NCBI GenBank assembly: GCA_028716525.1
Contig: JAQUPQ010000005.1
Coordinates: 1-64,000 of the forward strand
From: Terriglobia bacterium
Lineage (GTDB): Bacteria; Acidobacteriota; Terriglobia; JAIQFV01
DNA length: 64,000 nucleotides
Direction of reading: 5' to 3'
Shown here: positions 3,468-64,000 of the stretch, piece after piece
Layout of the letters: each line of letters starts with the position of its first letter
Numbering within the stretch: the first letter of the stretch is position 1
Position numbers and translations under genes: made by a program
Notes under the pieces: model-generated
Databases searched by the model: none
What the model saw: only the letters and a program-made list of their open reading frames with translations
What the model was told of the DNA's origin: nothing

Positions 3468-3503
3468 TTCATCCTCCCCGGTTCTTTGCGAAGCACGATT
3501 TTC

Positions 3504-4415: not shown

Positions 4416-4454
4416 AAAAATTCCCTTCTTGAAGAATGAAACGTCCGATCGGTT

Positions 4455-5738: not shown

Positions 5739-5979
5739 GGGTTCGAACCGTCATTCCTTCTTGACAGAGAATTTGGCAACTGCGGCAATGGGCCTGGTTA
5801 TCAATTTGGACACGACATTCCATGCAGATACCCATTCCACAGAGTGGCCCGCGTGGTTCCCCACTCACCGACCTGCGAAATTCGCTGTGGCCGGCCATGA
5901 GCACAGCAATCGATACCGGGGTTCCCGCAGGAACGCGAACTGCCGAACCGTTAATCCAAATGGTGACGAACTCAGGCAT
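5731..5979 (-). CDS. Small [2Fe-2S] subunit of D-hydroxyproline dehydrogenase
   Basis: An 82-residue ferredoxin-like protein of the HcnA/OoxC/sarcosine-oxidase type. The cysteines at about 47, 52, 55 and 68-72 (PLCGMGICMEC, HCRSCQILC) match the plant-type [2Fe-2S] arrangement of this family. It overlaps the genes on both sides by 8 bases and so is a fixed member of the heterotrimer, relaying electrons between the two flavoprotein subunits. It also appears too short to act alone. Confidence 0.86.
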   Translation of the reverse strand: MPEFVTIWINGSAVRVPAGTPVSIAVLMAGHSEFRRSVSGEPRGPLCGMGICMECRVQIDNQAHCRSCQILCQEGMTVRTHD

Positions 5980-12058: not shown

Positions 12059-12169
12059 GGTTCTTCCCTCGGTTGATGGATCCTATCCGGGCCGTCCCGA
12101 AGATGAAGCGAACGGAGCGCAGATTTCTGTCAAACCCTAGGCCGCCCTCGATGCGGGTCTGTTCTGCAA

Positions 12170-12198
12170 TAAACACGGATGAGGCATTTTGCTATAAT
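12170..12198 (+). promoter_or_regulatory. Sigma70-type promoter for the KASIII-like gene
   Basis: A perfect TATAAT at 12193-12198 has an upstream TG (extended -10), and TAAACA sits 17 bases before it. The expected start point is about 25 bases before the ATG at 12231. The match is by sequence only. Confidence 0.6.
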
Positions 12199-12230
12199 GA
12201 CGCCGCAAGTGAGTCACTTGCACCACACTC

Positions 12231-13253: not shown

Positions 13254-13258
13254 CCAGA

Positions 13259-14158
13259 ATGACCATCGAAAAGATCGTCAGAACAATCTTGCCTGCAAGC
13301 GCGCTGGCTTCCCTGCGCCGCGCAAAGTGGGAACGAAAGAGGCACCGAGTAGCTTCCCTCACCCCGCTGACGGAAAATGAGTTCCGAGACATTCTCACCG
13401 GCGAGTTGGGCCTGGGCACCGGGGACGTGGTTTACGTGCACAGCGGCATGGATGGACTCCATCTCGCCTTCCCGTTTTATCGAATCCTGTTTTTGATTCA
13501 GCAGGTCATTAGCCCCGCCGGAACCGTGCTCTTTCCCACTTATCCCAACCATCGCATATCCTCGTATGAGTATCTACTCCAGGGGAGAGTCTTTGACGTA
13601 CGCCGGACTCCCTCCTACACGGGGATTTTGACCGAGTTTGCGCGCCGGCAACGAAACGCCATCCGCAGCCTACATCCCACAAAATCGGTTTGCGCCATCG
13701 GAGGTGTGGCCAAGGAAATTACCGCGACGCATCATTGCTCCCCTTATCCCTACGACACGTGCAGCCCTTATTTCAAATTGATCGAGCACCGCGCGAAAAT
13801 TCTCGGCCTGGGAGCCTCCACGAATTACCTTTCATTCATTTACTGTGTGGATGATGCCCTCAAGGAAGAGTTTCCCGTGCAGGTCTACCACGATCGGATT
13901 TTCGATGCGCGATGTATTAACACGGAAGGGGAACACGTGGTCGTGAGAACCTATGCGCACAATATGGACCGCGTGATTCATCCGGATATGCCCCGCTTTA
14001 TGAAAACGCATGTCTCTACCGAAGCGTGTTGTGACCTCAGGGTCCGGGGGATGAAGTTTTTCCGCGCCAGTGCACCCAAGCTGTTCGATGAACTGTTGCG
14101 GCTCGCCGCCCAGGGCATCACCACCTACCCGCGATCCGTCTATCGAAAACGGAAGTAG
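13259..14158 (+). CDS. AAC(3)-family N-acetyltransferase
   Basis: A 299-residue protein of the antibiotic acetyltransferase (AAC(3)/FrbF/YokD) fold. The family landmarks are VVYVHSGMDGL near residue 58, RTPSYTGILTEFARR, RSLHPTKSVCAIG with the conserved His and Ser, and LGLGASTNYLSF. Relatives acetylate amino sugars on nucleotides or secondary metabolites as well as aminoglycosides. It starts 6 bases after the KASIII-like gene and lies beside a polysaccharide locus, so an acyl transfer to a sugar amine in that pathway is more likely than drug resistance. Confidence 0.8.
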   Translation: MTIEKIVRTILPASALASLRRAKWERKRHRVASLTPLTENEFRDILTGELGLGTGDVVYVHSGMDGLHLAFPFYRILFLIQQVISPAGTVLFPTYPNHRISSYEYLLQGRVFDVRRTPSYTGILTEFARRQRNAIRSLHPTKSVCAIGGVAKEITATHHCSPYPYDTCSPYFKLIEHRAKILGLGASTNYLSFIYCVDDALKEEFPVQVYHDRIFDARCINTEGEHVVVRTYAHNMDRVIHPDMPRFMKTHVSTEACCDLRVRGMKFFRASAPKLFDELLRLAAQGITTYPRSVYRKRK

Positions 14159-14215
14159 GTTGCGCCCGGCGGCCGACAAACAACCACCAGTCAACGGCTC
14201 CCCGGGGTCCTGAAA

Positions 14216-15361
14216 TCACTTGTTATCGGTTTCGCGGTTGTCCCGGCGCCGAATGTAAAACGCACCGCCTCGGAGCTTCTCCGCCATCTCGGCCAAGGTA
14301 ATGAACTTGAAGCCTTCGGTTCGTGAAACCTCGGCCAGGAGGTGCTCAATAGCGTTGATGTCGCGAATGTCCTTGGGGTGATTTGTTAACATTACGGGAA
14401 GCTCCGCCAAACCACTTGCTTCGGCCTGTTCCCTGATCGATTTGAGCATCTCGATCATCAAGGGATAATTCAGATTGCCCGTGTCGGACACGAAATGTGT
14501 TCGTTTCATTAGCGGCAGGATCAGCTTGGTATAGACTTGCCCGATTCGTGAAGGCTCGCTCCTCAAACGTCCATTCACAGGAGCCGCGCTGCCGGGCCGT
14601 TCAACGCCCCTGCGATGCCGTCGAACTTCTCGCCAAGCCAGTGACAGATTCCGTTGCGTGACCGCACGGCGCGACCCGTAAAAATGGTGGATCGGAACAC
14701 AAACAATCGGTTCGTGCTTGTCTGATACCTTACGCGCGTCTTCCATCAAGGGATAGAAAGGAAGAAACGTTTCTTCACAATGACGATAATCAAGCTGTAC
14801 GTGGCCATGGCTGACAAATAGACCGCCGACGGTGCTTACATCCAACTGCAGGCCAAGGTCGGCGAGGGACTTCAAGAGATGATCCGACGGGGCGGCGGCC
14901 AAAGCGCCGGCCCGAAAGGCAACGCAACGGTAGGCCGCATCAAGGGGCCGTAGAAGGTTTTCCAAATATTGCCGCCCCTCGGCGATCATCGCGTAAGCGG
15001 CTTCACGGTCGTAGGTCAGAATCGACCAATCGCCTTTCAGACACCATCGTCCATTTTCATATTCCGCGTTAAGCCACTGCGGGTGCAGGTGCAATTGCAC
15101 GTCATGGCCTCGAAGAAAAGTTTCGCGCACATGCTCGTCCCAGCGATCGGCAAAGCGTTTCAATTCCGGATGTTTGCCTTCCAGGCGTCGAAAACTGAGT
15201 TGCTGCATCAGGTCGGGAAGAAACGTCACGCGGGCACCGAACTTGGCGTAAATTTTCAGGAGTTTTCTCATCGGCGCAAATTGAATCTGCTCGATGTCTC
15301 CCGAGCCGTCACCGCGCAATTCCCAATCGTGAGTCAGAGCAAAATAGATCGTCGTTTTCAT
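14216..15361 (-). CDS. Polysaccharide deacetylase-like protein
   Basis: A 381-residue protein. The ATG at 15361 (MKTTIYFALTHDWEL) is preferred to an upstream TTG. The N-terminal THDWELRGDG and later QLHLHPQW recall the metal-binding Asp and His-rich motifs of carbohydrate esterase family 4 NodB domains, but spacing is atypical. A segment with FRAGALAAAP and the C-terminal MLTNHPKDI also fit deacetylase-like proteins of surface-polysaccharide loci. It would remove N-acetyl groups from a glycan or a precursor. It is convergent with the acetyltransferase gene and divergent from the main polysaccharide operon. Confidence 0.68.
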   Translation of the reverse strand: MKTTIYFALTHDWELRGDGSGDIEQIQFAPMRKLLKIYAKFGARVTFLPDLMQQLSFRRLEGKHPELKRFADRWDEHVRETFLRGHDVQLHLHPQWLNAEYENGRWCLKGDWSILTYDREAAYAMIAEGRQYLENLLRPLDAAYRCVAFRAGALAAAPSDHLLKSLADLGLQLDVSTVGGLFVSHGHVQLDYRHCEETFLPFYPLMEDARKVSDKHEPIVCVPIHHFYGSRRAVTQRNLSLAWREVRRHRRGVERPGSAAPVNGRLRSEPSRIGQVYTKLILPLMKRTHFVSDTGNLNYPLMIEMLKSIREQAEASGLAELPVMLTNHPKDIRDINAIEHLLAEVSRTEGFKFITLAEMAEKLRGGAFYIRRRDNRETDNK

Positions 15362-48130: not shown

Positions 48131-48612
48131 ATTCACTGAAATTCCCATTCCATCAATATTGGTCGTTGTTGATTTCCGTTCTCGATTAAAATTGGGATTT
48201 GGTAGCGATGCCAAGTCCCCCGTGGGGGACGCAGGCAGCGGCTTTTGGCCCGTCTGGAAGAGACTGGCTTCGTTACGGGGTCAGGACGTAGCATTTGATA
48301 TTTGGGCCTGGGCGCTGGTGGCGCTTAGATTGCCCCCTCAGGGCAAGAACCTAATCGAGGGGGCTTCGCTCCCAGGGCGATGCCCTGGGCTGTTGAAGAT
48401 TGCCCCTGCGGGGCAATTGGTTTATCGGCAGTGGCGTAGTGAACATTCCATTTTCTGGTCGGGTGGCGCAGACATCCAGTTTTTCAAGATGTCTGCGATA
48501 AACGTTGTTTCGGCTGGGTGGCGCATCATGTGTTCTTGGCATGTGTGCGGATGGCGGAGTGAGGATTATATTATCTGGTTGCTGGGATACCGCGAAGCGG
48601 GATCCCCGACCA
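48131..48612 (+). repeat. Composite hairpin repeat, copy A
   Basis: An ordered series of small hairpins: GTCCCCCGTGGGGGAC (48215-48230), TTGCCCCCTCAGGGCAA (48330-48346), CCCAGGGCGATGCCCTGGG (48371-48389), ATTGCCCCTGCGGGGCAAT (48399-48417), CGCAGACAT...ATGTCTGCG (48467-48497), a CATGTG...GCATGTG hairpin near 48526-48546, and GGGATACCGC...GCGGGATCCC (48584-48606). The same order recurs at 50685 and 58053. It fills the gap between tRNA-Lys and the M20 peptidase gene. No protein is encoded. Confidence 0.8.
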
Positions 48613-50684: not shown

Positions 50685-51240
50685 ACCTGGATTGCCCTTT
50701 CAGGGCAAGTAATCAAAATGGGGGTTTCAGACCCAGGGCGATGCCCTGGGCTATTGAAGATTGCCCCTGCGGGGCAATTGCTGGATTCGCTAACGCAACT
50801 AACAACGGGCGGGGTAGCATAGTACATTTCCAAGTCCGGCTGGGTGGCGCACACATGCGTTCTTGGCATGTGTGCGGATGGCGGAGTGAGGCTTATATTT
50901 TCTGGTAGCCGGGATCCCGCAGAGCGGGATCCCGGAGCAAATGAAACTCAAACGACAATTTCGATTGGATCCCTTCTAGCAGATCATCATCTGCCGCCCC
51001 GCCCGGCGGGGCTGGAGAAGAAAACAAACTGTGATTTATTACAACGGGTCTTTTGCCCCGCCCCTGAAGGGGCGGGCTGAGGCAGACAAGCCGCATGAAT
51101 GCGGCTGGGTGGCCCGCTCATGTGTTATTGGCATGTGCGCGGAAAGCTGGATAAGTGTCGAACATCTCGAGGGCTAGGTCTTGGCATTTGGGTTTGGGCG
51201 CTAGCGGCGCAGACATCGATTTTTTCAAGATGTCTGCGAT
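50685..51240 (+). repeat. Composite hairpin repeat, copy B
   Basis: Hairpins TTGCCCTTTCAGGGCAA (50692-50708), CCCAGGGCGATGCCCTGGG (50732-50750) and ATTGCCCCTGCGGGGCAAT (50760-50778) are followed by CGCACACATGC...GCATGTGTGCG (50848-50876) and a perfect 12-bp stem CCGGGATCCCGC-AGA-GCGGGATCCCGG (50909-50935). After a spacer come a variant of the CATGTG hairpin at about 51115-51142 and CGCAGACAT...ATGTCTGCG (51208-51238). Order and spacers match copies A and C, except that the last blocks are rearranged. Confidence 0.8.
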
Positions 51241-51378: not shown

Positions 51379-53478
51379 TCACATCTTGAATCCGCTGCCT
51401 GTGGCGTCAGCGATATTTCGAGTGCCCCAGTTGTGCTTTCCCTTTGTGTCCGTCTCGGCGATGGTTTTGAGCTGACAGAGCGAATGGTTCCAAATGACGT
51501 CGTGCACAAAAGCGGGAAACAAGTGCTGAAAGAACCACCACAATAGCCGCGTGATTGCCGTCCGCCCCCGCTGGAAGCGGAAGGCTACGTAAATGGACAA
51601 ATTGCAGAGCTGTTCGCCGGCCGGCTCGACTTCGAAAAACATCACGCCGCCGCGAGCGAAGCCGTTCTGCACGCGATAAATCAGCAGATGGCCTTCCGCG
51701 ATCCTTTCTAATTTCACATCAAAGGAGAACCGGCGGGCGAAGACCTCATAACAAATCACACACCCCACTTCATTCGCTTGGCCCAGGATGCGTCGGATGC
51801 GGACCCAACGGGGAAGGAAATAACCCCGGTCCGTTTCGCCAAAGCGGCCCAGTTGGCGCAGCACTGCGGGGCACGTGCCCCGGATACGAATGGTGTACAT
51901 CCGCTCAAACTCCAACGGGTCAGGTACCTCCACTTGGCATTCGGCCAACTCACGCCGAAATACAGCGCGTTTGGTTTCGAACTGCTCCTTCGCCACGCCG
52001 GTTGTGAACCGGCCAAACCCCTCCCATCTGAGGTGAAAGAAACATTCGGTGAGATAGTTGCGCAACGTGATCGCCAACCCGCCACTTAAGATCAACCAAA
52101 GAGTGGCGGGATGGATCATGGCCCGAAAGGTTGTTTCATACCGATCATCACCACTGGCAATTTTCCAAAGGATTTGTTCCAGACGCCGGTGCTCAGCGAT
52201 GCTGGCTTTTCGCTCCGTGATGACGGCTTGGTAGAGAACCCGACTAAGGACCGATGAACTGAAGACGACGCGGTGCAAGAAGAACACCAGAGCGGCGAAT
52301 CGGTTATCGCGACGAAAACTGCGGATGGTCGGCGCATATCCCTCCTCAAGACTGCGCCGGTCCACGCCCCGATCGAGGAGCGTCTCGGCCAGAGCACTGG
52401 CCGTGTAGTGCGCCGAAAGAATCCCGTCTTTGTAAAGCCGGGCGGTCGCCATGTCACCAATGGCAGCGACTCGGTCAGCGAAGGGCTGTCGCGCCGAGCC
52501 GACCACCAAGCGGGGATTGCAAACGCAGGCCGTGCGCAGTTGTGTGCCCGGCAACAGGAGGTGGCGAATGTGGGGGAGTTCAAGGAACTCGTGGATGATT
52601 CGTTGATTTCCCTTCACCCCGGGCAAGGTGTCGATGCTGGGACCCACGAGGACTACCGTGATGTAGCCTCGCTTAGGCAGCAGCGAACACATCTCAAGCT
52701 GCAATGACGCCGATCCATATTCCACGAAGTGCAGATGGCCCTCCAGGTTCGGGGCCACACCCGGCGGTGATTCCAATTCAAAGATCAAGGCGGGTCGCAG
52801 TCGCGGCGGCCGGTAATCAGGAGCGAGCCGGCGCAACACGCGGGTCAAGGACGGTTTTGACCCGACTGTTTCGGCAGCTTCGTTGACCCCGCCTGCAAAG
52901 ACGACAAAGTCCGCTTCCAGCTTTCTCTCCGCGCCGTCCGTGCGAAAGCGCACCAGAGGTCGGCCCCTTTCCGCGTATTCGACGTCAATCACCTCGCCGC
53001 TGATCAGAGTCGCGCCCTCAGCCAGAGCACGTTCCAGCAACACGGCATCAAAATTGTGCTGTCGGTCGGGTCGCGAGGCAGGTCGCGCGCCCCGAAACAC
53101 CGACACCATCTCCCGTCCGTCGGGCACCTGCAATTCGATGTTTTTCCAATAGCCCTGGACCGTGATCGAATGAATCTGGCTCTGAACGACCTCTTCCGGC
53201 AACTGCAGGTTCAATCGATGCAGCACATCATTCAGCCGGGGTGAAAGCCCGCCCGCGCAACAATTGCAGCCCTGCAAGCCCGCCGTGGAGCATCCGCCGT
53301 TGTGGCTAAACTTCTGACGCCGCCGCTCAATGACCACAACTTTCGCATGGCGTTGTAACTGCTGCGACCGGCGGAGCAGATGAACAGAGAAAAGGGCTCC
53401 CGCCGGGCCCCCACCGATGACGACGACGGTCGCCCCGTCCGCTAAGGGTGTGTGCTTCTGGTTGGTCTTCTCGCTCAT
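51379..53478 (-). CDS. FAD-dependent geranylgeranyl-reductase-like flavoprotein with C-terminal extension
   Basis: A 699-residue protein starting MSEKTNQKHT with no signal peptide. Residues about 15-400 form a flavoprotein reductase: VVVIGGGPAGALFSVHLL for FAD, a Cys-rich CSTAGLQGCNCCAGGLS near 70, FRGARPASRPDR, and AAIGDMATARLYKDGILSAHY for the second FAD segment. From about 480 to the end there is a separate alpha/beta domain with long hydrophobic segments (ILSGGLAITL) and GCVICYEVFARRFSFDV, perhaps a START/cyclase-like or lipid-binding fold. This length is well above the usual 400. It may reduce an isoprenoid or quinone. It is the last gene of the copper/iron-sulphur operon. Confidence 0.8.
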   Translation of the reverse strand: MSEKTNQKHTPLADGATVVVIGGGPAGALFSVHLLRRSQQLQRHAKVVVIERRRQKFSHNGGCSTAGLQGCNCCAGGLSPRLNDVLHRLNLQLPEEVVQSQIHSITVQGYWKNIELQVPDGREMVSVFRGARPASRPDRQHNFDAVLLERALAEGATLISGEVIDVEYAERGRPLVRFRTDGAERKLEADFVVFAGGVNEAAETVGSKPSLTRVLRRLAPDYRPPRLRPALIFELESPPGVAPNLEGHLHFVEYGSASLQLEMCSLLPKRGYITVVLVGPSIDTLPGVKGNQRIIHEFLELPHIRHLLLPGTQLRTACVCNPRLVVGSARQPFADRVAAIGDMATARLYKDGILSAHYTASALAETLLDRGVDRRSLEEGYAPTIRSFRRDNRFAALVFFLHRVVFSSSVLSRVLYQAVITERKASIAEHRRLEQILWKIASGDDRYETTFRAMIHPATLWLILSGGLAITLRNYLTECFFHLRWEGFGRFTTGVAKEQFETKRAVFRRELAECQVEVPDPLEFERMYTIRIRGTCPAVLRQLGRFGETDRGYFLPRWVRIRRILGQANEVGCVICYEVFARRFSFDVKLERIAEGHLLIYRVQNGFARGGVMFFEVEPAGEQLCNLSIYVAFRFQRGRTAITRLLWWFFQHLFPAFVHDVIWNHSLCQLKTIAETDTKGKHNWGTRNIADATGSGFKM

Positions 53479-53661
53479 TGAGATCCCGAGGTCGGCTCAG
53501 CGAGCGTCGTCGCAATCACGACGCATCGTGCCTTCCGTCGCATCCGGCGTGTCGAAGGGTTTCAGCAAACGGCGGTCAAGTTACAATTGCATAAAGGAGG
53601 GGAAAACCAGGTTATTGCCCGCCGTCGCGCTGCTCCAAAGCGGGGCGGAAGTTCACTTCGA

Positions 53662-53889
53662 TTAAGCCCCGGGCTCCGATTTAACCATCCGCAGCCTCAT
53701 TTGAACGGGGGCGCCGACATTCCCGAAACAGTAGTTCACTAGGTGACATCCGCACGAGGCGCATTCGCCCACGCATTTTGGGCACTGCACTTCCCAAACA
53801 CCCGGCTCCAAACGAATGCACGGCACATGGACATTACACACGTCGCAATAAAAGTAGTCTAACTTTCGCTGCATCTCGGCCGGAAACAT
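53662..53889 (-). CDS. Small Cys-rich (zinc-ribbon-like) protein
   Basis: A 75-residue protein with GGAGG directly ahead of the ATG. Its cysteines occur as CDVCNVHVPC, CPKC and CASCGCH plus one more Cys, giving several CXXC-type knuckles. This favours a zinc ribbon or a small metal carrier. It lies 30 bases after the COX2-like gene and is clearly part of the operon. A metal-delivery or assembly role is possible but not shown. Confidence 0.7.
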   Translation of the reverse strand: MFPAEMQRKLDYFYCDVCNVHVPCIRLEPGVWEVQCPKCVGECASCGCHLVNYCFGNVGAPVQMRLRMVKSEPGA

Positions 53890-53919
53890 GGATTCCTCCT
53901 CGCCATCGCGATGTCTTGT

Positions 53920-54399
53920 TTACCAGCTGTCCTCCGACCCGTTGGACTTCACAATGAAGTCGCCCTGAAGCTTCGAGTGTTCCGGGCTGCACACTTGCCA
54001 GCACAGGAATGTCAGGTCGCCGGGGCGGTTCGCGTCGAACGCTACTTCGACGGTGTGTCCTGCAGGCACCTCCACAGGTCCGATGTGCAGCAGGGGAATG
54101 GCAAAACTGTGAAGCACATCGGCACTGTGCAGTTGGACAACAACGTGGTCACCCTGATTCAAGGCGATCTCCCCGGCGCGGGTTGGCTTTCGCCACCAGT
54201 AGTTGTAACCCACGATTTCATCCTGCGTCCAAAGGCCGCCGTCGGCAACGGCAGTGAGTCGGATTACCTTGGTGTTGGGTGGATAACGATGAATCATTCC
54301 GACGGTCCGCCAATACTTAAGCATCATCGGCAGACCCAACAAAACGATCAGCACGGCCAACACACCGGCGGTTTCCTTCCATTTCATTGTTTTTGGCAT
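53920..54399 (-). CDS. CuA-like COX2-type protein without the Met ligand
   Basis: A 159-residue protein: one N-terminal membrane helix (about 9-28) and a periplasmic cupredoxin domain. The metal site shows His97 (VLHSFAIP), Cys133, Cys137 (FLCWQVCSPE) and His141, but position 144, the usual Met of C-x3-C-x3-H-x2-M, is Leu. That leaves an incomplete CuA centre, or one with a changed axial ligand. Cytochrome oxidase subunit II and NosZ CuA domains are the closest relatives. It starts four bases after the polyferredoxin gene. Confidence 0.85.
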   Translation of the reverse strand: MPKTMKWKETAGVLAVLIVLLGLPMMLKYWRTVGMIHRYPPNTKVIRLTAVADGGLWTQDEIVGYNYWWRKPTRAGEIALNQGDHVVVQLHSADVLHSFAIPLLHIGPVEVPAGHTVEVAFDANRPGDLTFLCWQVCSPEHSKLQGDFIVKSNGSEDSW

Positions 54400-54403
54400 G
54401 GCA

Positions 54404-55861
54404 TCACCCGATAAAGAGTTTTAGAAAGAGCACTGTCACGCCCAGCAGCAGAACTGCAGGCGGAATCATGCTTCGAAAAAGTTGCGTGGGATCTTTGAAG
54501 AGTTGACTTCCGACCTTGTGGAGGCCGCGTAGGCCGAAATAGAGACCGGCAAGTAGGATGGGCACCTGGGCGAAGGGCACCCACTGGGGCCACAGCGGCT
54601 TCCAGGGAAACTCTGCCGTGCCCAGCAAATTCATCCCCCAGCCGAGCGGGTCGGAAGCCACGGAAACGATATACGACCCGTTGACCATGATGAGAGGAAC
54701 GCTAAAAGCAATCCAGGCGAGCAGTCCCATCGGCACCAGCATGTAGGCGTATTTCAGGAAAAGTTCTTTGGTGGAAACATCGTCGGCTCGGGCGTACCAT
54801 TTCCCCAACCGAATCGAAAGGTAAAACAGCGCCGGAAAAATAACTAGGGCGAGCAGCGCCTGACCTGCTGCAAACATGCCAAAGCCGCCCCAGTTGTGCT
54901 TTTCGGAGATATTGGCCCAATCCTTCAACCATCCCCAAGGACCCAGCAGCACGATGGAATAACTGAAGGCCAGCATCAGCATAATGCAAGCTTTCCAGAC
55001 TTCATCGTAGCCCCGCAAAGCCACGTCGCTGGTTGAAAATGGCCGAAGGTACAAAGAAATATTATCGTTGGGGCAGCTTTTGACGCATTCAAAACAGAGC
55101 CCACAATAATTATTCCTGTCCAGCTTGCCCATATAGACATTCCACGGACACGCCCATCCTTTGTCGCTGCCTCGGATGCAGGATTTCGTCGTGCACTTCA
55201 GACAGACCTCTTTGTCCGCGGACCGCAGCTCCACGGTGGAGGTCATGGCATAAAGGCTGAGGAAACCGCTGATGGGGCAAATGTAGTTGCAGAAAGTCCG
55301 CAGACGATACACCAGTGCCATTCCGGCAGCCAGTAGAATCAGCACGCCGAAGACGATGGCGCTCACTAACGGGCGCGTTACCAGCAAGGCGCTGAAGGTG
55401 GCCAAAAAGAGAAAACCGAAGTTCTGCAACCAGATGTTGCTCAGCCGCTTGGGCCAGCGCTTCTGAAGCCCGAAGAATTTGTTCAAGGTTCCCGGACTCT
55501 TGCCGGAACGCACCCCCACCACCGACCGCCGCTGCAGCCAGTCGCCGAAGAACGGCAGGGGACACATCGTGCACCACAGTCGCGAGCCGAAGGGCATCAT
55601 GACGGCAATCAGCACGAACCACCACAAGATCCACACAAACACGATAATGATGTTGCGATTGCCGATCGGGGTCCCGAAGAAGCCGGCGATCAAGAACAGG
55701 TAGAACAGGAAGAGATTGGGAAGGATCACCAAAAACTGGAAACTGCGCATGCGCACCAGGCCCTTCAACCAGGGCAAGTGGGCAAACACGTCAAAGCGCC
55801 AAGGCTTTTTCTCTATCTCCTGGGGAACTGGCTCTGTAAGGATCCGTTCTGCCGTTGCCAT
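54404..55861 (-). CDS. Membrane polyferredoxin (NosR/NapH/CcoG-like)
   Basis: A 485-residue inner-membrane protein. The start at 55861 (MATAERILTEP) is favoured because GAGGTGAG precedes it. Hydrophobic helices alternate with RLWCTMCPLPFFG and TFCNYICPISG, the CX2-3CP motifs of NapH/NosR-type proteins. Between helices sits a soluble iron-sulphur part with VCLKCTTKSC, ACPWN and CGLCFECVKSCPND, enough for two [4Fe-4S] clusters. Such proteins move electrons between quinol and periplasmic redox partners. Here the partners would be the CuA-like and blue copper proteins of the same operon. Confidence 0.87.
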   Translation of the reverse strand: MATAERILTEPVPQEIEKKPWRFDVFAHLPWLKGLVRMRSFQFLVILPNLFLFYLFLIAGFFGTPIGNRNIIIVFVWILWWFVLIAVMMPFGSRLWCTMCPLPFFGDWLQRRSVVGVRSGKSPGTLNKFFGLQKRWPKRLSNIWLQNFGFLFLATFSALLVTRPLVSAIVFGVLILLAAGMALVYRLRTFCNYICPISGFLSLYAMTSTVELRSADKEVCLKCTTKSCIRGSDKGWACPWNVYMGKLDRNNYCGLCFECVKSCPNDNISLYLRPFSTSDVALRGYDEVWKACIMLMLAFSYSIVLLGPWGWLKDWANISEKHNWGGFGMFAAGQALLALVIFPALFYLSIRLGKWYARADDVSTKELFLKYAYMLVPMGLLAWIAFSVPLIMVNGSYIVSVASDPLGWGMNLLGTAEFPWKPLWPQWVPFAQVPILLAGLYFGLRGLHKVGSQLFKDPTQLFRSMIPPAVLLLGVTVLFLKLFIG

Positions 55862-55865
55862 TGTC

Positions 55866-56357
55866 TCACCTCGCATTGGAAGCGCCGGCGCGGCCCTTTT
55901 CCGCCAGCCGGTCGTTCAACAAACGCACGTGCGCATTCTCAAACTCACCGAGTTCCCGATAAACTTTTCGCAACTCCGCATCGGATGTACGCGACGATTC
56001 TCGGCTATAGAATTGCCTTGCCATCTGCTCGGCTCGCAAGCCCGCCTTGAGGGCCTGCTCGACGGTCATCGAGTCAAAGACCAGCGCCTCGGGGTCCTCT
56101 AAGTCGGGCGCCTCGATCACTTCCTTCGGCTCCTCTCCTGGAGAGGGCACCGCACCGAAGCGCTCGCGATAAAGCTTTTCGAGTTCCATGCCATGCCGGC
56201 GTTCTTCGGCAGCCAATTCGCTAAAGATTGCGGTCACTGAATCCTCGTAGCCCACGAAGAGCTGGGCCAGAGAGTTGTAGACTTCAGCGTTGCGGGCTTC
56301 AATCTGAATGGCTCGAAGTAACGGGCCACGGCAAACGTCCGACGAAACGGTGCTCAT
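55866..56357 (-). CDS. Ferritin-like (rubrerythrin-type) protein
   Basis: A 163-residue helical protein. The ATG at 56357 (MSTVSSDVCRG) overlaps the stop of the upstream gene as ATGA; longer frames are artefacts. The helices carry IQIEARNAEVYNSL, ELAAEERRHGMELEKL and GEFENAHVRLL, the E...ExxH and ExxH elements of a four-helix di-iron carboxylate site. No rubredoxin domain is present. It would hold a di-iron centre for oxygen or peroxide handling, or metal storage, in this copper/iron operon. It has no export signal. Confidence 0.82.
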   Translation of the reverse strand: MSTVSSDVCRGPLLRAIQIEARNAEVYNSLAQLFVGYEDSVTAIFSELAAEERRHGMELEKLYRERFGAVPSPGEEPKEVIEAPDLEDPEALVFDSMTVEQALKAGLRAEQMARQFYSRESSRTSDAELRKVYRELGEFENAHVRLLNDRLAEKGRAGASNAR

Positions 56358-56875
56358 TTCTTCACTCCTTGCGACGAAGGACGAAAAACCAGCAGCATGC
56401 CAAGCAGCAAACCCATCGAAAGTCCCACCGAAGTGGAGAAAAGGTGATTGGGACGGACAATCAGTTCTCCCTGCATGAACGGATGCATGTAGCCGCACGT
56501 GATCGAGCAGCGATAGCGGAACTTGCCCGGACGGCTGGCGACAAAGCTGACTTCATCAACCTCTTCGAAGTCCCCGCCCTGTGAAGGGTGCCGCACCCAG
56601 AAGGTATCGTTTTCCGGGCGCATCTTTGCCTCCAGGTTGTAACCCTCGAGATAGAAACCGTGCGTGACATCCTGGGCCACCAGGTGGAGATGGATCCGGT
56701 CGCCACGATTCACCTGAAGCACCGGCGGATCGTACGCATACTTGTGAGCAGTGATGGTAATGCTGCGGTCTTGAGGGGGTGCTAGGTGAAACGCAGTGAA
56801 CAAAAACCCCGCAAGTCCGCCCAGAACGATCACCACTGCAAGGCGCACATATTTCGAATCGATCAAATGTTTCAT
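56354..56875 (-). CDS. CuA-type COX2-like cupredoxin
   Basis: A 173-residue protein with an N-terminal membrane anchor (about 10-30), a cupredoxin domain and a hydrophobic C-terminal segment (SVGLSMGLLLGMLLVF). The complete CuA motif is seen: His72 (VTHGFYLEG), then Cys123-x3-Cys127-Gly-x2-His131-x2-Met134 (RCSITCGYMHPFMQG). It would be a binuclear copper electron acceptor on the periplasmic face. There is no cytochrome oxidase subunit I in the window, so it is not an ordinary oxidase subunit II. Its stop overlaps the ferritin-like start. Confidence 0.9.
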   Translation of the reverse strand: MKHLIDSKYVRLAVVIVLGGLAGFLFTAFHLAPPQDRSITITAHKYAYDPPVLQVNRGDRIHLHLVAQDVTHGFYLEGYNLEAKMRPENDTFWVRHPSQGGDFEEVDEVSFVASRPGKFRYRCSITCGYMHPFMQGELIVRPNHLFSTSVGLSMGLLLGMLLVFRPSSQGVKK

Positions 56876-56915
56876 GCTTCCTCCTTCACGCTTTCAATCT
56901 GTACGAAGGCTGGCA

Positions 56916-57479
56916 CTAGAAGCTGATGGTGATGTTCCCTTTCGCCGGTACCTTCACGTTTTGCTGCTTGGTTTTGTCCTGGTACCAGGCTTTGATCACA
57001 TAGTCGCCCGGCGGCACATCGGCAATGTGAAACTTGCCGCCGCCGTCCAGCAGCGAGAAGTAGGGATTCTGCAGCACCAGGATGTACGCCCCCATCTCGG
57101 GATGGATATTGCAGAGAATGGCGATTTCACCGAGTTTATTGAAGGTGTTGCTGCGAGCCATCCCCTGGCTGTAGCTCCCCAGGTTGAACTTGTCGGCACC
57201 CACACCCAACACGTTGTGCTGCAGGTTATCGCTGTTGTGGAACTCGACGGTGGCACCTGCGACCACCGGGAGGACATAAGGAACGAAAACCTTGCTGCGC
57301 TGGTCCATCTTGGCATTGCCGCCATGGAATGTTCCCGGGACTTTTTCGATGTACACCACCGCGTGGTCGGGTTTCGGCACAGCCAGCGCGCCTACGATAT
57401 CTCCCGCCCGCAAATAGCTGACGGAGAGTAAAAGACCGATGGTCGCCGTCACGAATATCGCACCCTTGATTTTGGTCAT
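56916..57479 (-). CDS. Plastocyanin-like type-1 copper protein with C-terminal beta domain
   Basis: A 187-residue secreted protein. The start at 57479 (MTKIKGAIFVTATIG) has GGAGGGAAGT immediately upstream; longer frames lack this. A signal or anchor at about 8-25 precedes a cupredoxin domain with EFHNSDNLQHNV (His81 or His88) and CNIHPEMG (Cys123, His126, Met129), the blue copper ligand set. After that a carboxypeptidase-regulatory-like segment (GKFHIADVPPGDYVIKAWY) forms a second small beta domain. First gene of the operon; 40 bases to the CuA-type gene. Confidence 0.88.
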   Translation of the reverse strand: MTKIKGAIFVTATIGLLLSVSYLRAGDIVGALAVPKPDHAVVYIEKVPGTFHGGNAKMDQRSKVFVPYVLPVVAGATVEFHNSDNLQHNVLGVGADKFNLGSYSQGMARSNTFNKLGEIAILCNIHPEMGAYILVLQNPYFSLLDGGGKFHIADVPPGDYVIKAWYQDKTKQQNVKVPAKGNITISF

Positions 57480-58052: not shown

Positions 58053-58521
58053 AGTTCCCTGAAATCTCCATATCGTCAATCTGGTCGTTGTTGGTTTCTT
58101 CTTCGTATCACACTTGGTTTTGGTAGCGATGCCAAGTCCGCCTCGGCGGGCGCAGGCAGCGGTTTCTTGTGCGCGTGGAGAAGACCCGTTTCTACATGAG
58201 AGTGAGGGGTCGCATTTGGGCTTGGGTGCTGCGGGCGCCGACATCGAATTCTTCAAGATACGATTCTTAGATTGCCCTTTCAGGGCAAGAACCTAATCGA
58301 GAGAGTCTTCGATCCCAGGGCGATGCCCTGGGCTATTGAAGATTGCCCTTGCAGGGCAATTACTGAATCGGTTAACGCAACTAGCAACGGGCGGAGTGGC
58401 GTATTACATTTCCAAATCCTGCTGGGTGGCGCATACATGCGTTTTTGGCGTGTGTGCGGATGGCGGAGTGAGGATTATACTTTCTGGTAGCCGGGATACG
58501 CGGCATCTCGCGTATCCCGGC
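58053..58521 (+). repeat. Composite hairpin repeat, copy C
   Basis: Hairpins in the same order as copy A: GTCCGCCTCGGCGGGC (58136-58151), TTGCCCTTTCAGGGCAA (58272-58288), CCCAGGGCGATGCCCTGGG (58314-58332), ATTGCCCTTGCAGGGCAAT (58342-58360), GCATACATGC...GCGTGTGTGC (58431-58457) and a perfect 13-bp stem GCCGGGATACGCG...CGCGTATCCCGGC (58490-58521). Spacer sequences such as TGGTAGCGATGCCAAG and GGATGGCGGAGTGAGG are shared with A, and the second also with B. It lies between the two electron-transfer operons. Confidence 0.8.
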
Positions 58522-58645: not shown

Positions 58646-59974
58646 CTATTCCGTACCTGGAAGATAACCTTTCACTCTCTCTTCGACTCCTTGGAGGGAG
58701 TTTCGGCGGCCTTCTTGTATCTCCCAAATGGAGATGATGGGGAACAACTTTGTGAAACCCATGTAGAGAAGAATGAAGGTGGCGAAAAAGCCCAGCGTGA
58801 TGGCGATCTCGACCCAGGTTGGTGAATAGTTGATCCGGCCCAAGGGGAGCCGGGGGTGGGAGAGCGTGGGCACGACGATGGCGTAGCGCTCCAGCCACAT
58901 GCCGATGTTCACAAACACCGAAGCCACGACTGTTCCTGTCACCGTGCGCGTCTTTCTCCGCCCAAGAATGGAAACGGGAATCACAAAACAGCTCACCACC
59001 ATGGTCCAAAACATTCCGGAGTATCGCCCGGTCACTTTGGAATAGAACACCGCCAGGTGAATCGGTTCCGATCCGTAGTAGGTGGTCAGGAATTCGGCGA
59101 AAGTAAAGTAGAACCACAGCAGGCTCATTACCAGCAGAAGCAAACCCAGATTATTAAAGTGAATCTGTTTCAGATAGTTCTCCAGGTGATACATGCGCCG
59201 AATGAGGGCCATGGCGATGATGAGCGCCGCAATGCCTGAGAAGATCGCGCCGACGACGAAGTAAGGTCCAAAGATGGTGCTGTGCCACATCGGCTGCACG
59301 GTCATGGCAAACACCCAGGAAACCACGGTGTGAACGGAGACGGCGATCGGGATGACCAGGATGGCCATCACTGCAATGAGGCGTTCCAGCCGGTGTTTCT
59401 GTTTGTCCGTGCCTTGGAAACCGAGGGACAGCAAACGATAGAACTTCTGTCGCTTGCCCGCGTAGTCGCGCAAAATGGCAATGTCGGGTATCAAGGGCAA
59501 GTAAAGATAAATGCAACTGGCTGTCAGATACACCGTGATACTGCAGACATCCCACAACAAAGGCGACCGAAAATTCGGGTGAAACAACACATTGAGCAGC
59601 CGATCGGGTCGACCCAGATCCATGATGACGCTGCCGGCACCAAAGAAGAGCACCAACACCGTAATGACTTCCGCGGCGCGCGTGATGGGACGCCGCCACT
59701 CCGCTTGAACCAACCGCAGGATGGCTGAGATGAGCGTTCCCGCGTGGCTGATGCCGATGAAGAAAACAAAATTGGTGATGTACACTCCCCAATATACCGG
59801 GACATTCAAACCCGTCACCACCAGGCCGTCCTTCAGTTGTTGAACCCAGGCAAACAAACAGGTTGCCCCGAGAAGCATCAAGAGGCCCATGACCTTGTAA
59901 AACTGGCTGGTCGTCTGTTGAATGGGCCGAAGAAGAACCGCTTCTGGTCCCGGATCGAGATTATGATTTTCCAC
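58646..59974 (-). CDS. NrfD/PsrC-family membrane subunit
   Basis: A 442-residue integral membrane protein with about nine to ten helices. It has the NrfD pattern: VYWGVYITNFVFFIGISHAGTL near residue 60, RAAEVITVLVLFFGAG, DLGRPDRLLNVLFHPN, and IPIAVSVHTVVSWVFAM with a conserved His. PYFVVGAIFSGIAAL follows. In Qrc, ActC and PsrC this subunit holds the quinone site. It begins inside the end of the ferredoxin gene (14-base overlap) and closes the complex I call Qrc/ACIII-like. A repeat lies directly behind its stop. Confidence 0.9.
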   Translation of the reverse strand: MENHNLDPGPEAVLLRPIQQTTSQFYKVMGLLMLLGATCLFAWVQQLKDGLVVTGLNVPVYWGVYITNFVFFIGISHAGTLISAILRLVQAEWRRPITRAAEVITVLVLFFGAGSVIMDLGRPDRLLNVLFHPNFRSPLLWDVCSITVYLTASCIYLYLPLIPDIAILRDYAGKRQKFYRLLSLGFQGTDKQKHRLERLIAVMAILVIPIAVSVHTVVSWVFAMTVQPMWHSTIFGPYFVVGAIFSGIAALIIAMALIRRMYHLENYLKQIHFNNLGLLLLVMSLLWFYFTFAEFLTTYYGSEPIHLAVFYSKVTGRYSGMFWTMVVSCFVIPVSILGRRKTRTVTGTVVASVFVNIGMWLERYAIVVPTLSHPRLPLGRINYSPTWVEIAITLGFFATFILLYMGFTKLFPIISIWEIQEGRRNSLQGVEERVKGYLPGTE

Positions 59975-60659
59975 TCCACTCTCCTTCCGCCAGGTAGAAG
60001 ACTTTGGGTTGGGCTCCCAGTTCTTCCAGCAACCGGAAGACTCGAGGGCTGCGGCTCATTTCTTTCACTTTGCTCTTCGGATCCTCCAAGTCTCCAAAGT
60101 ACATCGCTTGCGTCGGGCACGTTTCCACGCAGGCGGGAATATATTCGCCATCCGCCAGAGGGCGATTCTGCGACGCCGCCACCTCCTTCGCTTTCTGCAA
60201 TCGGTGAACGCAGAACGTGCACTTTTCAACCACACCCTTGGGCCGCAACGAAACATCCGGATTCTGGGCTTCCTCCATTCCTTCCGGCCACTCCGGCGCC
60301 TTCCAATTGAAAACACGAACCGTATAAGGACAGGCGTTGGTGCAATAGCGGCAGCCAATACATCGGCCGAAGATTTGGCGGACGATTCCATCGGGGGTAA
60401 TGTTGGTGGCGTCTACCGGACACACCTTGATGCAGGGCGGGTTGTCGCAATGCTGGCACGGCAGGGGCAGCAAGCGCATCTTGACGTGAGGGAATTCTCC
60501 TTCAATAAAGGGAACGATTTTGATCCACGCGAGAGTCCGTCCACGACCCGCTTCTTCCGGGGACGCACACGGCACGTTATTTTCAGCGGCACAAGCCACC
60601 ACGCAGGCCTGACAGCCGCTGCACTTCGCCAAATCGATCACCATCCCCCATCGAGCCAT
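59961..60659 (-). CDS. Four-cluster ferredoxin subunit (DmsB/QrcC-like)
   Basis: A 232-residue soluble protein. Four groups of cysteines are present: CSGCQACVVAC, PCQHCDNPPCIKVCP, CIGCRYCTNACP and KCTFCVHRL with ACVETCP further on, matching four [4Fe-4S] clusters of the DmsB/PsrB/QrcC family. There is no signal peptide, as usual for subunits exported together with a Tat partner. It starts seven bases after the molybdopterin-type gene and would relay electrons between that subunit and the NrfD subunit. Confidence 0.92.
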   Translation of the reverse strand: MARWGMVIDLAKCSGCQACVVACAAENNVPCASPEEAGRGRTLAWIKIVPFIEGEFPHVKMRLLPLPCQHCDNPPCIKVCPVDATNITPDGIVRQIFGRCIGCRYCTNACPYTVRVFNWKAPEWPEGMEEAQNPDVSLRPKGVVEKCTFCVHRLQKAKEVAASQNRPLADGEYIPACVETCPTQAMYFGDLEDPKSKVKEMSRSPRVFRLLEELGAQPKVFYLAEGEWSGKS

Positions 60660-60666
60660 AGATCAC

Positions 60667-63147
60667 CTATCCCGGAAAAATCCGAACTCGAGTCTTAATC
60701 CACGGCGACTGATTGCCCGAAGATTCCATCGAGTCACTCTTCCCTTTTGCCAACACCTCGCAGGGATTCACCCCGCGTCCGCGGCTCCAGCGAGATCCTC
60801 CGTGGTGCCCCAGGCCGACCGGGATGGCCACGACCTCCGGCCGCAATCCTTCGTACCAACGCGCCCGGATTCGAAACTTGTGATTGGGCGTTTCCACCCA
60901 GGCCCAGCTTCCATCTTCGATTCCAAGCCGGTGAGCCGTTTCCGGATGAATTTCGATCCAGCTGTCCCACTTTTGATAGAGATGTTGCCCCAGAATCTGC
61001 TGCATGTAGGGCAGGTCGGCACCCTGGGTCTCGCTGAGAGGCAAAACTTCAAAAAGATATAACGACAAGGGAAATTGCCCGTCGCTACCGGCCTTCAGCG
61101 CAGCGTCATCTCCGGAGACCGTTGCCGCATAATGGGGCAGGCAAAGTCGCTCGGCATTGGAAAGCCCAGCCGCATTCGAGTTTCTTCCCGCTTTGGCCAG
61201 GCATTCGTTCCATCGAATTTGCGAAAAAAATTCAAACTTCCGCGAAGGTGTTTGAAAGACGCCTTCCCGCAGGCCGTAGGGATAGGTGAAATCCCACCAG
61301 CCGCCTTTGGTCTTCATTTGTTCCCAAAGCTCTTCTGCGGTCGAATACTCCGGCGACCACCAGCCGCCTCTCTCAAGCAACTTGTCCCACACTTCTTCGA
61401 GAGAAGAACCAAACAAATTGCCGCGCTGGGCAGCGTATATTTCCTTGGATCGAAGCTGGAGGACTTGCTCGAAATTGTCATAGCGGAGGGCTTGATCAAT
61501 GGGGCTTCCCATGCGCTTGACTATATCCAGGAGGACATCACTCGAGGATCGGCTTGAAAAGCGCGGGGGAACGACTGCCTGAGTAAGCCCGACGATGGCG
61601 TGCGGAAAGACAGGCGCGTTCTCACACAAATCCTGGGTCTCGAGAAAAGTGGGCACGGGCAGAAGCAGATCCGACTGCTCCGTCGTGTCGTCGGGAAGTG
61701 AAGCGAAATTGACCACCAGGGGAATTCTTGCCAAGGCCGCCGAAAAACGTTCCGGGTCCGAGGACATGTACGCCGGATTGGCTTCACGGATAATGAGAAG
61801 CTCGAGCGGAGATGTTTTCTCGTTGAGAACCGCATCGGCAAGTCGATCGGAAAACTCCCCCTTGAAGGCGGACTGAACGGTTTGGAGAGAAGCTGTTGCC
61901 GATATTCCCGAATCGATTCGAGCGCTTGCGGTTTTCCCGGCGGAGGTGGCCGGCAGATTCTCCTCCTGCGTCAAGACCCCGCCCGGCTGCTCAAAATTTC
62001 CCACCAAGGCATTCAAGCTCAAGACCGCCATGGAACCGTTGAGCGTTCCCGGCTGAATGTTTCCCGGTTGATCTCCCAGGGCCAGAGCCGGCGGATTGGC
62101 GGCAAACTCGCGTCCCAATCTCAAAATGGTTTCCACGGGGACACCGGTCACGTCAGCCGCCAGATTGGGCGGGTAGTCCCGCAAAACCGCCGTTGAAAAA
62201 CCCGTATGCTTCCGGCCGGCCGCGTCGGTCCATTCGTCAAATCCAAAAGTTTGTTCGGACACAAAGGGTTCATTGAATCGTCGTTCTGAAATGATGACAT
62301 GGGCGATGCCCAAAGCCAGGGCAGCCTCGGTTCCCGGTCGGATGGGAACCCATTCATCCGCCTTGGCGGCTGTGATGGAGAGCCGGGGCGAAATTTGGAC
62401 GAACTTGGTTCGCTGTCCTTCCATGGCCCGCCACGAACCGAAAACATGTGCTGCATAAGCGGGAGAACCCCAACCCTCAAGCAGATTCACACCAAAACTC
62501 AAAACGTAGCTGGCTTTCTTGAGATCGTAAGCCGGGGCGGCTTTTGCTCCCATCATGTAATGAGCGGCCAGGCTGGGGCCGTCCTGCACACCCGGGTAAG
62601 GAAAATAGTTTGGAGATCCGATGGCTCCCAGGAATTGGCGCCAGAGACTCGTCGACACGCTCGCTCGGGCACCGTCGAGCACCGCTACTTGTTTTTCGCG
62701 GCCGGCTTTCCTGAGGGACAGCAACCGGTCTGCGACGCGCTCGACCGCCTGGTCCCACGAAATCGGTTCCCATCGCCCCGACCCCTTCTTGGATTGCCAG
62801 AGCGGCTGTCGAAGGCGGTCGGGATGATAAAGCGCCTGAAGGAGGCCCTGTCCTTTCGGGCAGACTCCGCCTCGATTGATGGGATGGTTGGAATTTCCCA
62901 CTACTTTGACGGCACGCTTGCCGATCATGCGAATCATGAGGCCACAGCCTCCAGCACAAGCTTGGCACGTGGTCGCGACCCAGCGTTCCGGGCCGCGCGG
63001 GGGACGTCGATCCACCGTCAAAGCATGAGACAGTGTGCTGATGCCTTTTAACGTCACACCAGCGGCTGCCGTTCCGACGGCGGCGCCTCCGGCAAGTCGG
63101 AAGAAGTCACGGCGATTGAAATCTCCGAGTAATTTTTCGGGTTTCAT
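60667..63147 (-). CDS. Molybdopterin-oxidoreductase-like subunit, Tat-exported (QrcB/ActB-like)
   Basis: An 826-residue protein. The start at 63147 (MKPEKLLGDFNRRDFFRLAGG) overlaps the cytochrome stop as ATGA, has GGAAGGAAG upstream and exposes a Tat signal. The N-terminal [4Fe-4S] site CX2CX3CX27C is complete (Cys61, 64, 68, 96: TTCQACAGGC and GGVCPKG). Where catalytic family members carry Cys, Sec or Ser as the Mo ligand (about residues 180-195) the sequence reads YPGVQDGPSLAA, with no Cys. The C-terminus (about 690-826) has the dinucleotide-domain motifs WVETPNHKFRIRA and RSRGRG-like. This fits QrcB/ActB-type subunits, which do not use molybdenum, better than a polysulphide or formate enzyme. 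Confidence 0.88.
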   Translation of the reverse strand: MKPEKLLGDFNRRDFFRLAGGAAVGTAAAGVTLKGISTLSHALTVDRRPPRGPERWVATTCQACAGGCGLMIRMIGKRAVKVVGNSNHPINRGGVCPKGQGLLQALYHPDRLRQPLWQSKKGSGRWEPISWDQAVERVADRLLSLRKAGREKQVAVLDGARASVSTSLWRQFLGAIGSPNYFPYPGVQDGPSLAAHYMMGAKAAPAYDLKKASYVLSFGVNLLEGWGSPAYAAHVFGSWRAMEGQRTKFVQISPRLSITAAKADEWVPIRPGTEAALALGIAHVIISERRFNEPFVSEQTFGFDEWTDAAGRKHTGFSTAVLRDYPPNLAADVTGVPVETILRLGREFAANPPALALGDQPGNIQPGTLNGSMAVLSLNALVGNFEQPGGVLTQEENLPATSAGKTASARIDSGISATASLQTVQSAFKGEFSDRLADAVLNEKTSPLELLIIREANPAYMSSDPERFSAALARIPLVVNFASLPDDTTEQSDLLLPVPTFLETQDLCENAPVFPHAIVGLTQAVVPPRFSSRSSSDVLLDIVKRMGSPIDQALRYDNFEQVLQLRSKEIYAAQRGNLFGSSLEEVWDKLLERGGWWSPEYSTAEELWEQMKTKGGWWDFTYPYGLREGVFQTPSRKFEFFSQIRWNECLAKAGRNSNAAGLSNAERLCLPHYAATVSGDDAALKAGSDGQFPLSLYLFEVLPLSETQGADLPYMQQILGQHLYQKWDSWIEIHPETAHRLGIEDGSWAWVETPNHKFRIRARWYEGLRPEVVAIPVGLGHHGGSRWSRGRGVNPCEVLAKGKSDSMESSGNQSPWIKTRVRIFPG

Positions 63148-64000
63148 GATTTCTTCCTTCCCGGCTTCGAAGGTTCGTCTGGAACCGGGGCTTCCAGAAA
63201 CCTGATGAGATTCTCTATCTCCTCGCGACGCAACGAAGGCCATTCAATCTTTTGTTGCTGCATGTGTTCCAACATGGAGGGTCCATGATTCCACAGGGCA
63301 GCCGCGAGACGGGTCAGTGAAAGCTCTCCTTGCCAGTCTTTGAGATTGGGCCCGACTCCTGCGGGACCGGAGCCCAAGGTATGACAGCCCGCACATCCCT
63401 TGTTCTGAAAAACCTGTTTCCCTTCTTTGCCGTTTCCTGAAATTTCAAAATATCGGGAAGAAAAAAGATAGGAGATGAGATCCGCCATCTCCTTGTCGGA
63501 GAAGAGGGGCTGTTTCATCCCGAGGCTTTGCATGCGCTCGGCCATACGGGGGGCGTGATTCCACATCAATCCCGCAAATTGACCGACCGTTCGAGGCAGG
63601 GCGGCTCGCCCCAATTCCGGCGCTCCGACGGATTTCACTGCGGTGGTGTGAACGGATTTATGGCATTGTGAACATCCCTTGGACTGAAACAACGACTTTC
63701 CAGCAACGGGATCGGCAGGACGAATGTAGACGAGGTTACCTGCCTCGCTGGATTGGGTCCTGACATAAGCGATGAGATTGACCATGTCATTCTCCTGGAA
63801 CTGCGGCCAGGTCAGTCCCTGCCGTGTCATCTCCTTCCTCATTCCAGCGGCGTGGTTCCACATGGTCTGGGCCCACTGCACGGCGTTTCGAAGATTGGTC
63901 CAACGCTCGAGGTCAGGGCCGATCCGTCCACCTTTTGAACCGCTCATTCCCTGAATGGAGTGACATCGAGAGCAACTTTTGCTGGCGAAGACTTGGCGCC
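63144..64000 (-). CDS. Tandem-domain cytochrome c, N-terminus beyond the window
   Basis: The frame continues past the right edge: codons from 64000 to 63948 encode FASKSCSRCHSIQGMS, so the true start lies outside. At least three c-type units of roughly 95 residues are visible, with CSRCH, CSQCH and CAGCH. Each ends in a similar motif: MWNHAAGMRKEM, MWNHAPRMAERM or LWNHGPSMLEHM. This repetition shows internal duplication and leaves Met and His available as distal ligands. The C-terminus is a short charged tail. Its gene precedes the molybdopterin-type subunit with a four-base overlap, so it would be the QrcA/ActA-like electron exit of the complex. Confidence 0.88.
   Translation of the reverse strand, partial: RQVFASKSCSRCHSIQGMSGSKGGRIGPDLERWTNLRNAVQWAQTMWNHAAGMRKEMTRQGLTWPQFQENDMVNLIAYVRTQSSEAGNLVYIRPADPVAGKSLFQSKGCSQCHKSVHTTAVKSVGAPELGRAALPRTVGQFAGLMWNHAPRMAERMQSLGMKQPLFSDKEMADLISYLFSSRYFEISGNGKEGKQVFQNKGCAGCHTLGSGPAGVGPNLKDWQGELSLTRLAAALWNHGPSMLEHMQQQKIEWPSLRREEIENLIRFLEAPVPDEPSKPGRKKS

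Follow-up and report, generated by a model that had tools for sequence, protein, structure and literature searches.

Membrane iron-sulfur proteins are paired with cupredoxins in known systems, among them FtrB and FtrD. Polyferredoxins of the NapGH/NosR type are proposed to deliver electrons from quinol to periplasmic reductases, and it is the membrane helices of NapH that are proposed to oxidize the quinol (PMC5928378). A gene block that sets a related polyferredoxin between two CuA-type proteins, in the order cupA-polyferredoxin-cupB, is encoded in the genome of a Terriglobia bacterium (GCA_028716525.1), within a stretch of 64,000 nucleotides (the window) that forms bases 1-64000 of a 142,958-base contig (JAQUPQ010000005.1, here C5) in a 4.2-Mb assembly (G000) that is 96% complete. 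The closest named relatives of this genome, by comparison of the polyferredoxin, are metagenome-assembled genomes of Acidobacteria. A preliminary description of the window proposed that six tightly packed genes and a seventh 183 bp behind them, at positions 51379-57479, form a distinct copper and iron-sulfur module, and all seven open reading frames are indeed intact, on the minus strand and joined as it stated. Reading from the blue copper gene, which starts at 57479, 40 bp precede cupA, cupA overlaps a ferritin-like gene by 4 bp, 4 bp separate the latter from the polyferredoxin gene (start at 55861) and another 4 bp the polyferredoxin gene from cupB, and 30 bp and 183 bp lie ahead of genes for a Cys-rich small protein and a flavoprotein, respectively. 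The protein families named in that description were also recovered by profile and PDB comparison, that of the blue copper protein being the weakest.

The feature that defines this system is a core of three genes. A polyferredoxin scan of named genomes yielded 17 loci, from Acidobacteria, Neomarinimicrobiota, Planctomycetota (including Phycisphaerae), Lindowbacteria, Myxococcales and Chloroflexi, and further loci came from sampled genomes of Acidobacteriota, Chloroflexota and Planctomycetota. The core clade comprises 47 loci, and the order cupA-polyferredoxin-cupB is kept in Acidobacteriota, Chloroflexota, Planctomycetota, Neomarinimicrobiota, Lindowbacteria and Myxococcota. Judged from these comparisons, the core order and the CuA motifs are conserved in at least six phyla; this conservation rules out a chance grouping. 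A cupA gene with a complete CuA motif is present in 37 of the 47 loci, most of the remaining 10 end at contig edges or show cupA by tblastn only, and cupB comes next in most loci, often with a fused cytochrome c. More distant polyferredoxins encoded on plasmids (22-27% identity) have no annotated cupredoxin nearby in four records, so the CuA link belongs to the core clade. In a divergent subclade (L043, L124 and L142), cupA adjoins the polyferredoxin gene and no cupB was detected. No published description of this gene set was found in the open-access literature, a scope that excludes subscription papers and preprints.

The cupA product (56354-56875, minus strand) is a membrane-anchored cupredoxin with the signature DVTHGF...CSITCGYMHPFM. 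It matches Cupredoxin_1 above the cut-off, its nearest PDB relatives are CuA domains of the Thermus ba3 oxidase, with which it aligns across the entire CuA region (E 4e-12), and the His, Cys, Cys, His and Met ligands of a complete CuA site are all present in a COX2 fold. The cupB product (53920-54399, minus strand; CWQVCSPEHSKL) has a CuA-like COX2 domain (PF00116, above the cut-off) that also aligns with the Thermus ba3 CuA domain (E 6e-9), and its ligand set is one short of complete, since Leu occupies the Met-ligand position in the window and in L036 and L057-L060; the Met is retained in other clades, where many cupB relatives bear a fused cytochrome c. In the window clade this axial-ligand change coincides with a missing heme c domain, and such a natural Met-to-Leu CuA-like site is of interest to copper chemistry. 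SCO1/SenC genes in the L037 and L123 clusters are consistent with genuine CuA sites. Compared with the CuA domains of COX2 and NosZ, cupA shares all ligands and cupB shares the COX2 fold and, in many relatives, the heme c fusion, but neither protein is attached to COX1 or NosZ and two distinct CuA proteins are encoded in each operon.

The polyferredoxin gene (54404-55861, minus strand) encodes a protein with about nine transmembrane helices, CX2CP and CX3CP motifs, and two [4Fe-4S]-type Cys sets. Nine transmembrane segments were counted, by our reading of the helices, in an AlphaFold2 model built from 19 sequences (predicted template modeling score 0.80). In the 19-sequence alignment on which motif conservation was judged, C97xxC100P and C191xxxC195P are invariant, the first motif being CX2CP in 19 of 19 sequences; the second [4Fe-4S] set (C253, C256, C259 and C263) is likewise invariant, and in the first set C220, C228 and C238 are invariant and the fourth ligand is His in Chloroflexota. 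The loops that carry the Cys motifs contain 10 and 13 Lys or Arg residues and those on the opposite side contain 1-2; because of this bias, the clusters are predicted to face the cytoplasm, and the most conserved non-Cys stretch of the protein (NGSY...SDPxGWGxxLxGT...W) is predicted to lie in a periplasmic loop. Profile searches matched the protein to Fer4_5 and placed it below the NapH threshold (TIGR02163, 22.1 bits against a cut-off of 213), and searches of the PDB and of solved structures and folds returned no relatives. Like NapH, NosR and RdhC, it has a membrane-embedded part in which two Cys motifs contain CP, and it may also share the two [4Fe-4S] sets of NapH and NosR. It differs from this group, which is characterized by two CX3CP motifs, in its first motif (CX2CP), in the variable ligand of its first [4Fe-4S] set, in five additional transmembrane helices and the conserved periplasmic loop, and in having CuA proteins encoded on both sides; it differs from NosR and RdhC also in that a Pfam scan found no FMN-binding domain. 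Since it is laid out as NapH and NosR are but falls short of both the NapH cut-off and the first CX3CP, the polyferredoxin resembles these proteins from outside their family and, by analogy, may work as they do without being a member of either.

The genes encoded next to the core change from lineage to lineage. For example, NosZ is encoded immediately behind cupB in three Acidobacteriota of one genus (L038-L040; TIGR04246, 863-873 bits), and a divergent NosZ is present in L047. An AioA/IdrA-type molybdenum subunit, a Rieske protein and two MauG-like peroxidases, a set that resembles idrABP1P2, are found in L063 and L065, and the alpha, beta and gamma subunits of a type II dimethyl sulfoxide (DMSO) reductase are encoded in L122, with alpha and beta in L158 and alpha in L123. 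Outer-membrane conduits form the last group of partners: a conduit of MtrB and a decaheme cytochrome (DmsE) in the window genome and in L041, and Cyc2-type heme-porins in several relatives. The published Cyc2 motif, AXPXFAR[QK][TY], is exact in L057 and L059, where it is accompanied by CXXCH and a predicted barrel, and is one residue off in L037; L056 has the C-terminal part of such a protein. A low-confidence model of the L057 heme-porin (predicted local distance difference test score 48) has 16 strands; OprP is among the porins that it matches. These relatives, as well as a second locus in G000, share with Cyc2 the arrangement AXPXFAR[QK][TY]...CXXCH...PXL and the predicted 16 strands, and differ from it in that their heme-porins are encoded alongside blue copper and CuA proteins. 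The iodate-reductase-like clusters (idrA/B/P1/P2 type) that adjoin the core span positions 13468-20073 of L063 and 12597-19217 of L065, in Planctomycetota and Lindowbacteria.

A polyferredoxin tree relates these partners to the descent of the core. The tree was a quick one of 60 sequences with Shimodaira-Hasegawa approximate likelihood ratio (SH-aLRT) support only, in which the placements of L133 and L140 are to be disregarded, as these badly cut sequences cover 11-12% of the columns. The window sequence, which goes with MtrAB, neighbors relatives that bear Cyc2 (82% identity), and L041, also with MtrAB, is sister to the Cyc2-bearing L037 (support 94). From these interleaved positions, at least two exchanges between MtrAB and Cyc2 appear to have occurred, a pattern that is the strongest argument for a core that delivers electrons over one that serves a single enzyme.

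We favor, with a probability only slightly above one half (about 0.52), the reading that cupA-polyferredoxin-cupB is a portable, quinol-linked electron-delivery module with outward flow, which in this genome serves the MtrB/DmsE conduit. The membrane polyferredoxin, acting like NapH or NosR, would draw electrons from the quinol pool. At the periplasmic face it would pass them to two carriers that are anchored in the membrane and have CuA sites recognized from their sequences, and the soluble blue copper protein would act as a shuttle. These carriers would in turn supply the terminal partner of each lineage, which gene order suggests to be an outer-membrane heme-porin conduit or one of three reductases (nitrous oxide, iodate-like or type II DMSO). 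In the window genome, the candidate partner is the MtrB/DmsE-type porin-decaheme conduit, and multi-domain cytochromes accompany it, as does a quinone complex of the Qrc-like kind. Several points weigh against this electron-delivery reading. The [4Fe-4S] clusters are predicted to be cytoplasmic, which places them across the membrane from the CuA carriers; the window cupB has neither the Met ligand of CuA nor the heme c domain, both of which are found in other clades; no terminal partner is evident near the Chloroflexota copies, some of which lie amid copper-homeostasis-like genes (HMA domain, Met-rich kinase); and partners were assigned by gene neighborhood, mostly in metagenome-assembled genomes.

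By analogy, the module could be called a NapGH/NosR-like electron-delivery system built from CuA proteins. A broader claim, that the CuA-polyferredoxin-CuA complex is an undescribed class of quinol dehydrogenase plugged into interchangeable end points in several phyla, is tentative and falls somewhat short of even odds. If it is true, this class would rank beside NapGH, CymA and cytochrome bc1 as their general counterpart at high potential, with nitrous oxide, iodate and type II DMSO reductases and MtrAB or Cyc2 outer-membrane conduits as end points. To our knowledge, the electron routes from quinol to NosZ without NosR, to iodate reductase, and to Mtr or Cyc2 systems outside the Proteobacteria are poorly known. 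Gene order ties the module to each of them, so it could be a common missing link in uncultured subsurface lineages; its genes would also serve as markers in metagenomes and as a system open to direct testing. No link to the Kuenenia NXR was found in PMC8387239.

A serious rival, which we nevertheless regard as unlikely, reverses the flow: MtrAB or Cyc2 would admit electrons from a reduced donor, extracellular Fe(II) or another, and cytochromes and cupredoxins would relay them to oxidases, and also to the quinone pool via the Qrc-like complex, the polyferredoxin or both. Oxidation of Fe(II) has been demonstrated for Cyc2 (PMC8406198), whose motif is present in the heme-porins of the relatives, and MtoAB runs inwards (PMC12016527). 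In addition, the genome encodes two COX1/COX2 oxidases and a second locus with Cyc2-type and blue copper genes, and the best profile names for the quinone complex, QrcB and QrcC, are those of a menaquinone reductase. On the other hand, the polyferredoxin resembles the quinol-oxidizing NapH, and outward flow from quinol to acceptor is favored because three partner types (NosZ, the iodate-reductase-like enzymes and the DMSO-reductase-type enzymes) are reductases and because RuBisCO, the sole carbon-fixation route examined, was not found in G000.

It is improbable, though less so than the readings that follow, that the polyferredoxin is no respiratory donor but helps the CuA proteins and their partner to mature, either by reducing copper as CcoG does or by aiding assembly in the manner of NosR. 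Its pairing with CuA proteins is the only association that stays constant whatever the partner, copper-homeostasis-like genes surround the Chloroflexota copies, and NosR is tied to NosZ activation as well as to electron transfer (PMC5928378). A role in maturation is, however, less needed where clusters contain SCO1/SenC, the usual CuA chaperone family; furthermore, most clusters also hold electron carriers (blue copper proteins, or heme c fused to cupB), and the Pfam scan found no FixG C-terminal domain in the polyferredoxin.

The possibility that the set is a remnant of a cytochrome oxidase, nitric oxide reductase or nos operon that has lost its catalytic subunit here has very little left in its favor. 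The CuA domains and heme c fusion are CoxB-like and three relatives of one genus do have NosZ adjacent, so that part of the idea stands, but COX1 was found in just one of the 47 core loci (L128, ~8 kb distant), NosZ in four, and other lineages have several other partner types. As the neighbors vary by lineage, the core is not a fragment of any single known operon; it is distinct from oxidases and is more than a part of a nos operon. Least probable of all is ferrous iron uptake of the FtrABCD kind, which would fit a cupredoxin adjoining a membrane iron-sulfur protein and a ferritin-like gene in the cluster, but no FTR1-type permease or P19/FtrA is present among the scanned cluster proteins, and cupA and cupB are of the CuA type, unlike FtrB (PMC11966278).

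Three genes around the core, those for the ferritin-like, Cys-rich and blue copper proteins, are extras restricted to particular lineages. The blue (type-1) copper protein (56916-57479, minus strand) has a signal peptide, a His...CNIHPEM site and a C-terminal carboxypeptidase-regulatory-like domain; its plastocyanin profile match is below the cut-off (E = 0.008), the type-1 ligand motif CNIHPEM being present nonetheless, and relatives adjoin the core in L056-L059, L037, L041, L042, L063, L065, L121 and L138-L139. The ferritin-like, rubrerythrin-like di-iron protein (55866-56357, minus strand) is without a signal peptide and matches a rubrerythrin/ferritin-like profile, and its gene adjoins that of the polyferredoxin in L056-L059, L062, L063, L065, L122 and L137. 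The Cys-rich protein (53662-53889, minus strand), with 9 Cys in 75 amino acids, has no family match in the profile scans and is kept in L056-L060, L041 and L062. No ferritin-like gene was found with the Chloroflexota core copies, which carry a PCYCGC lipoprotein in place of these extras. Around one of them (L132, positions 2763-6024 and 12081-14883) are genes for DoxX, YtkA-like and HMA-domain proteins and a Met-rich histidine kinase, a setting that suggests copper-responsive control.

The seventh gene (51379-53478, minus strand) encodes a 699-amino-acid flavoprotein with a geranylgeranyl-reductase-like FAD domain and a long C-terminal extension to which no family was assigned. Its inclusion in the module by the preliminary description was rejected, as no counterpart adjoins any other core copy and the sole weak match (26% identity, in L037) is on the opposite strand 10 kb away. 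A dispersed intergenic repeat occurs at 50732-50915, 58314-58497 and 48371-48588, and its two best copies (90% identity over 184 nucleotides) flank the copper and flavin genes on both sides; the idea that they mark a mobile cassette was dropped, since the repeat family has 45 matches across the genome, many of them partial.

The copper genes are one end of a cluster of ~20 kb, the other half of which extends past the window. A 1166-bp gap with dispersed repeats separates them from genes for a Qrc-like complex, all on the minus strand: an NrfD-type membrane subunit (58646-59974; PF03916, 126.5 bits), a QrcC-like ferredoxin subunit (59961-60659) and a QrcB-like subunit of the molybdopterin-enzyme fold (60667-63147). 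Known QrcB and ActB proteins lack the Mo-ligand Cys. The window complex shares the NrfD, ferredoxin and Mo-fold subunits of Qrc and alternative complex III, as well as the missing Cys, but scores below the curated cut-offs for Qrc (QrcB 308 against 440, QrcC 296.5 against 400). The Mo-fold subunit is probably an electron-transfer subunit and not a reductase, because its alignment has a gap at the position of the ArrA/PsrA Cys that we take to be the Mo ligand. The preliminary description suggested that the copper relay feeds from this neighboring quinone complex; the complex is there in this genome, but the link is not general, as QrcC-like genes are near the module only in the window, in L065 and, beside a distant relative, in L148.

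Farther upstream, also on the minus strand, are a cytochrome c with four single-heme domains (63144-64000, continuing to 64472 on the contig) and, beyond the window, a pentaheme c7-like protein (64497-65051), a second four-domain cytochrome c (65114-66358), a tetraheme protein (66403-67005), an MtrB/PioB barrel (67078-69762; TIGR03509, 385.6 bits, cut-off 240), a DmsE-type decaheme (69790-70830; TIGR03508, 269.2 bits, cut-off 192), NtrC (71145-72641) and a histidine kinase (72634-74040). The cluster thus shares with MtrAB, MtoAB and PioAB a porin and a DmsE/MtrA decaheme, both above curated cut-offs, and differs in its apparent quinone link, a Qrc-like complex plus the CuA module, with no CymA- or MtrC-like gene recognized in the cluster. 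The MtrB gene is the only one in G000 and is located 12-15 kb from the polyferredoxin gene. As the preliminary description noted for the block itself, neither COX1 nor NosZ is present, and this holds for the cluster beyond the window; two complete COX1/COX2 sets are encoded on other contigs (C16 and C67 carry COX1 genes, C8 and C19 have weaker matches, and C5 has none), and no full NosZ was found in G000.

A perfect match to a sigma54 -24/-12 site (TGGCACGACACTTGC, 70883-70897, beyond the window) lies 53 bp ahead of the decaheme start and adjoins the NtrC gene, and is the sole such site in 83 kb. Only perfect matches were used as evidence, the frequency of sites with mismatches across the window being not above chance. 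Perfect sites also precede cupA in L038 and L063, 9 occur in 1.24 Mb (some loci overlapping) where base composition predicts ~2.5, and an NtrC gene is near many core copies outside Chloroflexota. This candidate sigma54/NtrC-type promoter probably controls the upstream half of the cluster, and the copper genes, given the repeat-bearing gap, may be a separate transcription unit with its own promoter. The second heme-porin locus of G000 is on contig C23 (L179, 9368-19472), where the gene for a Cyc2-motif protein is followed by one for a blue copper protein, and genes further along resemble those for a GltD-type oxidoreductase, a Rieske protein, cytochrome b, and octaheme and mono-heme cytochromes.

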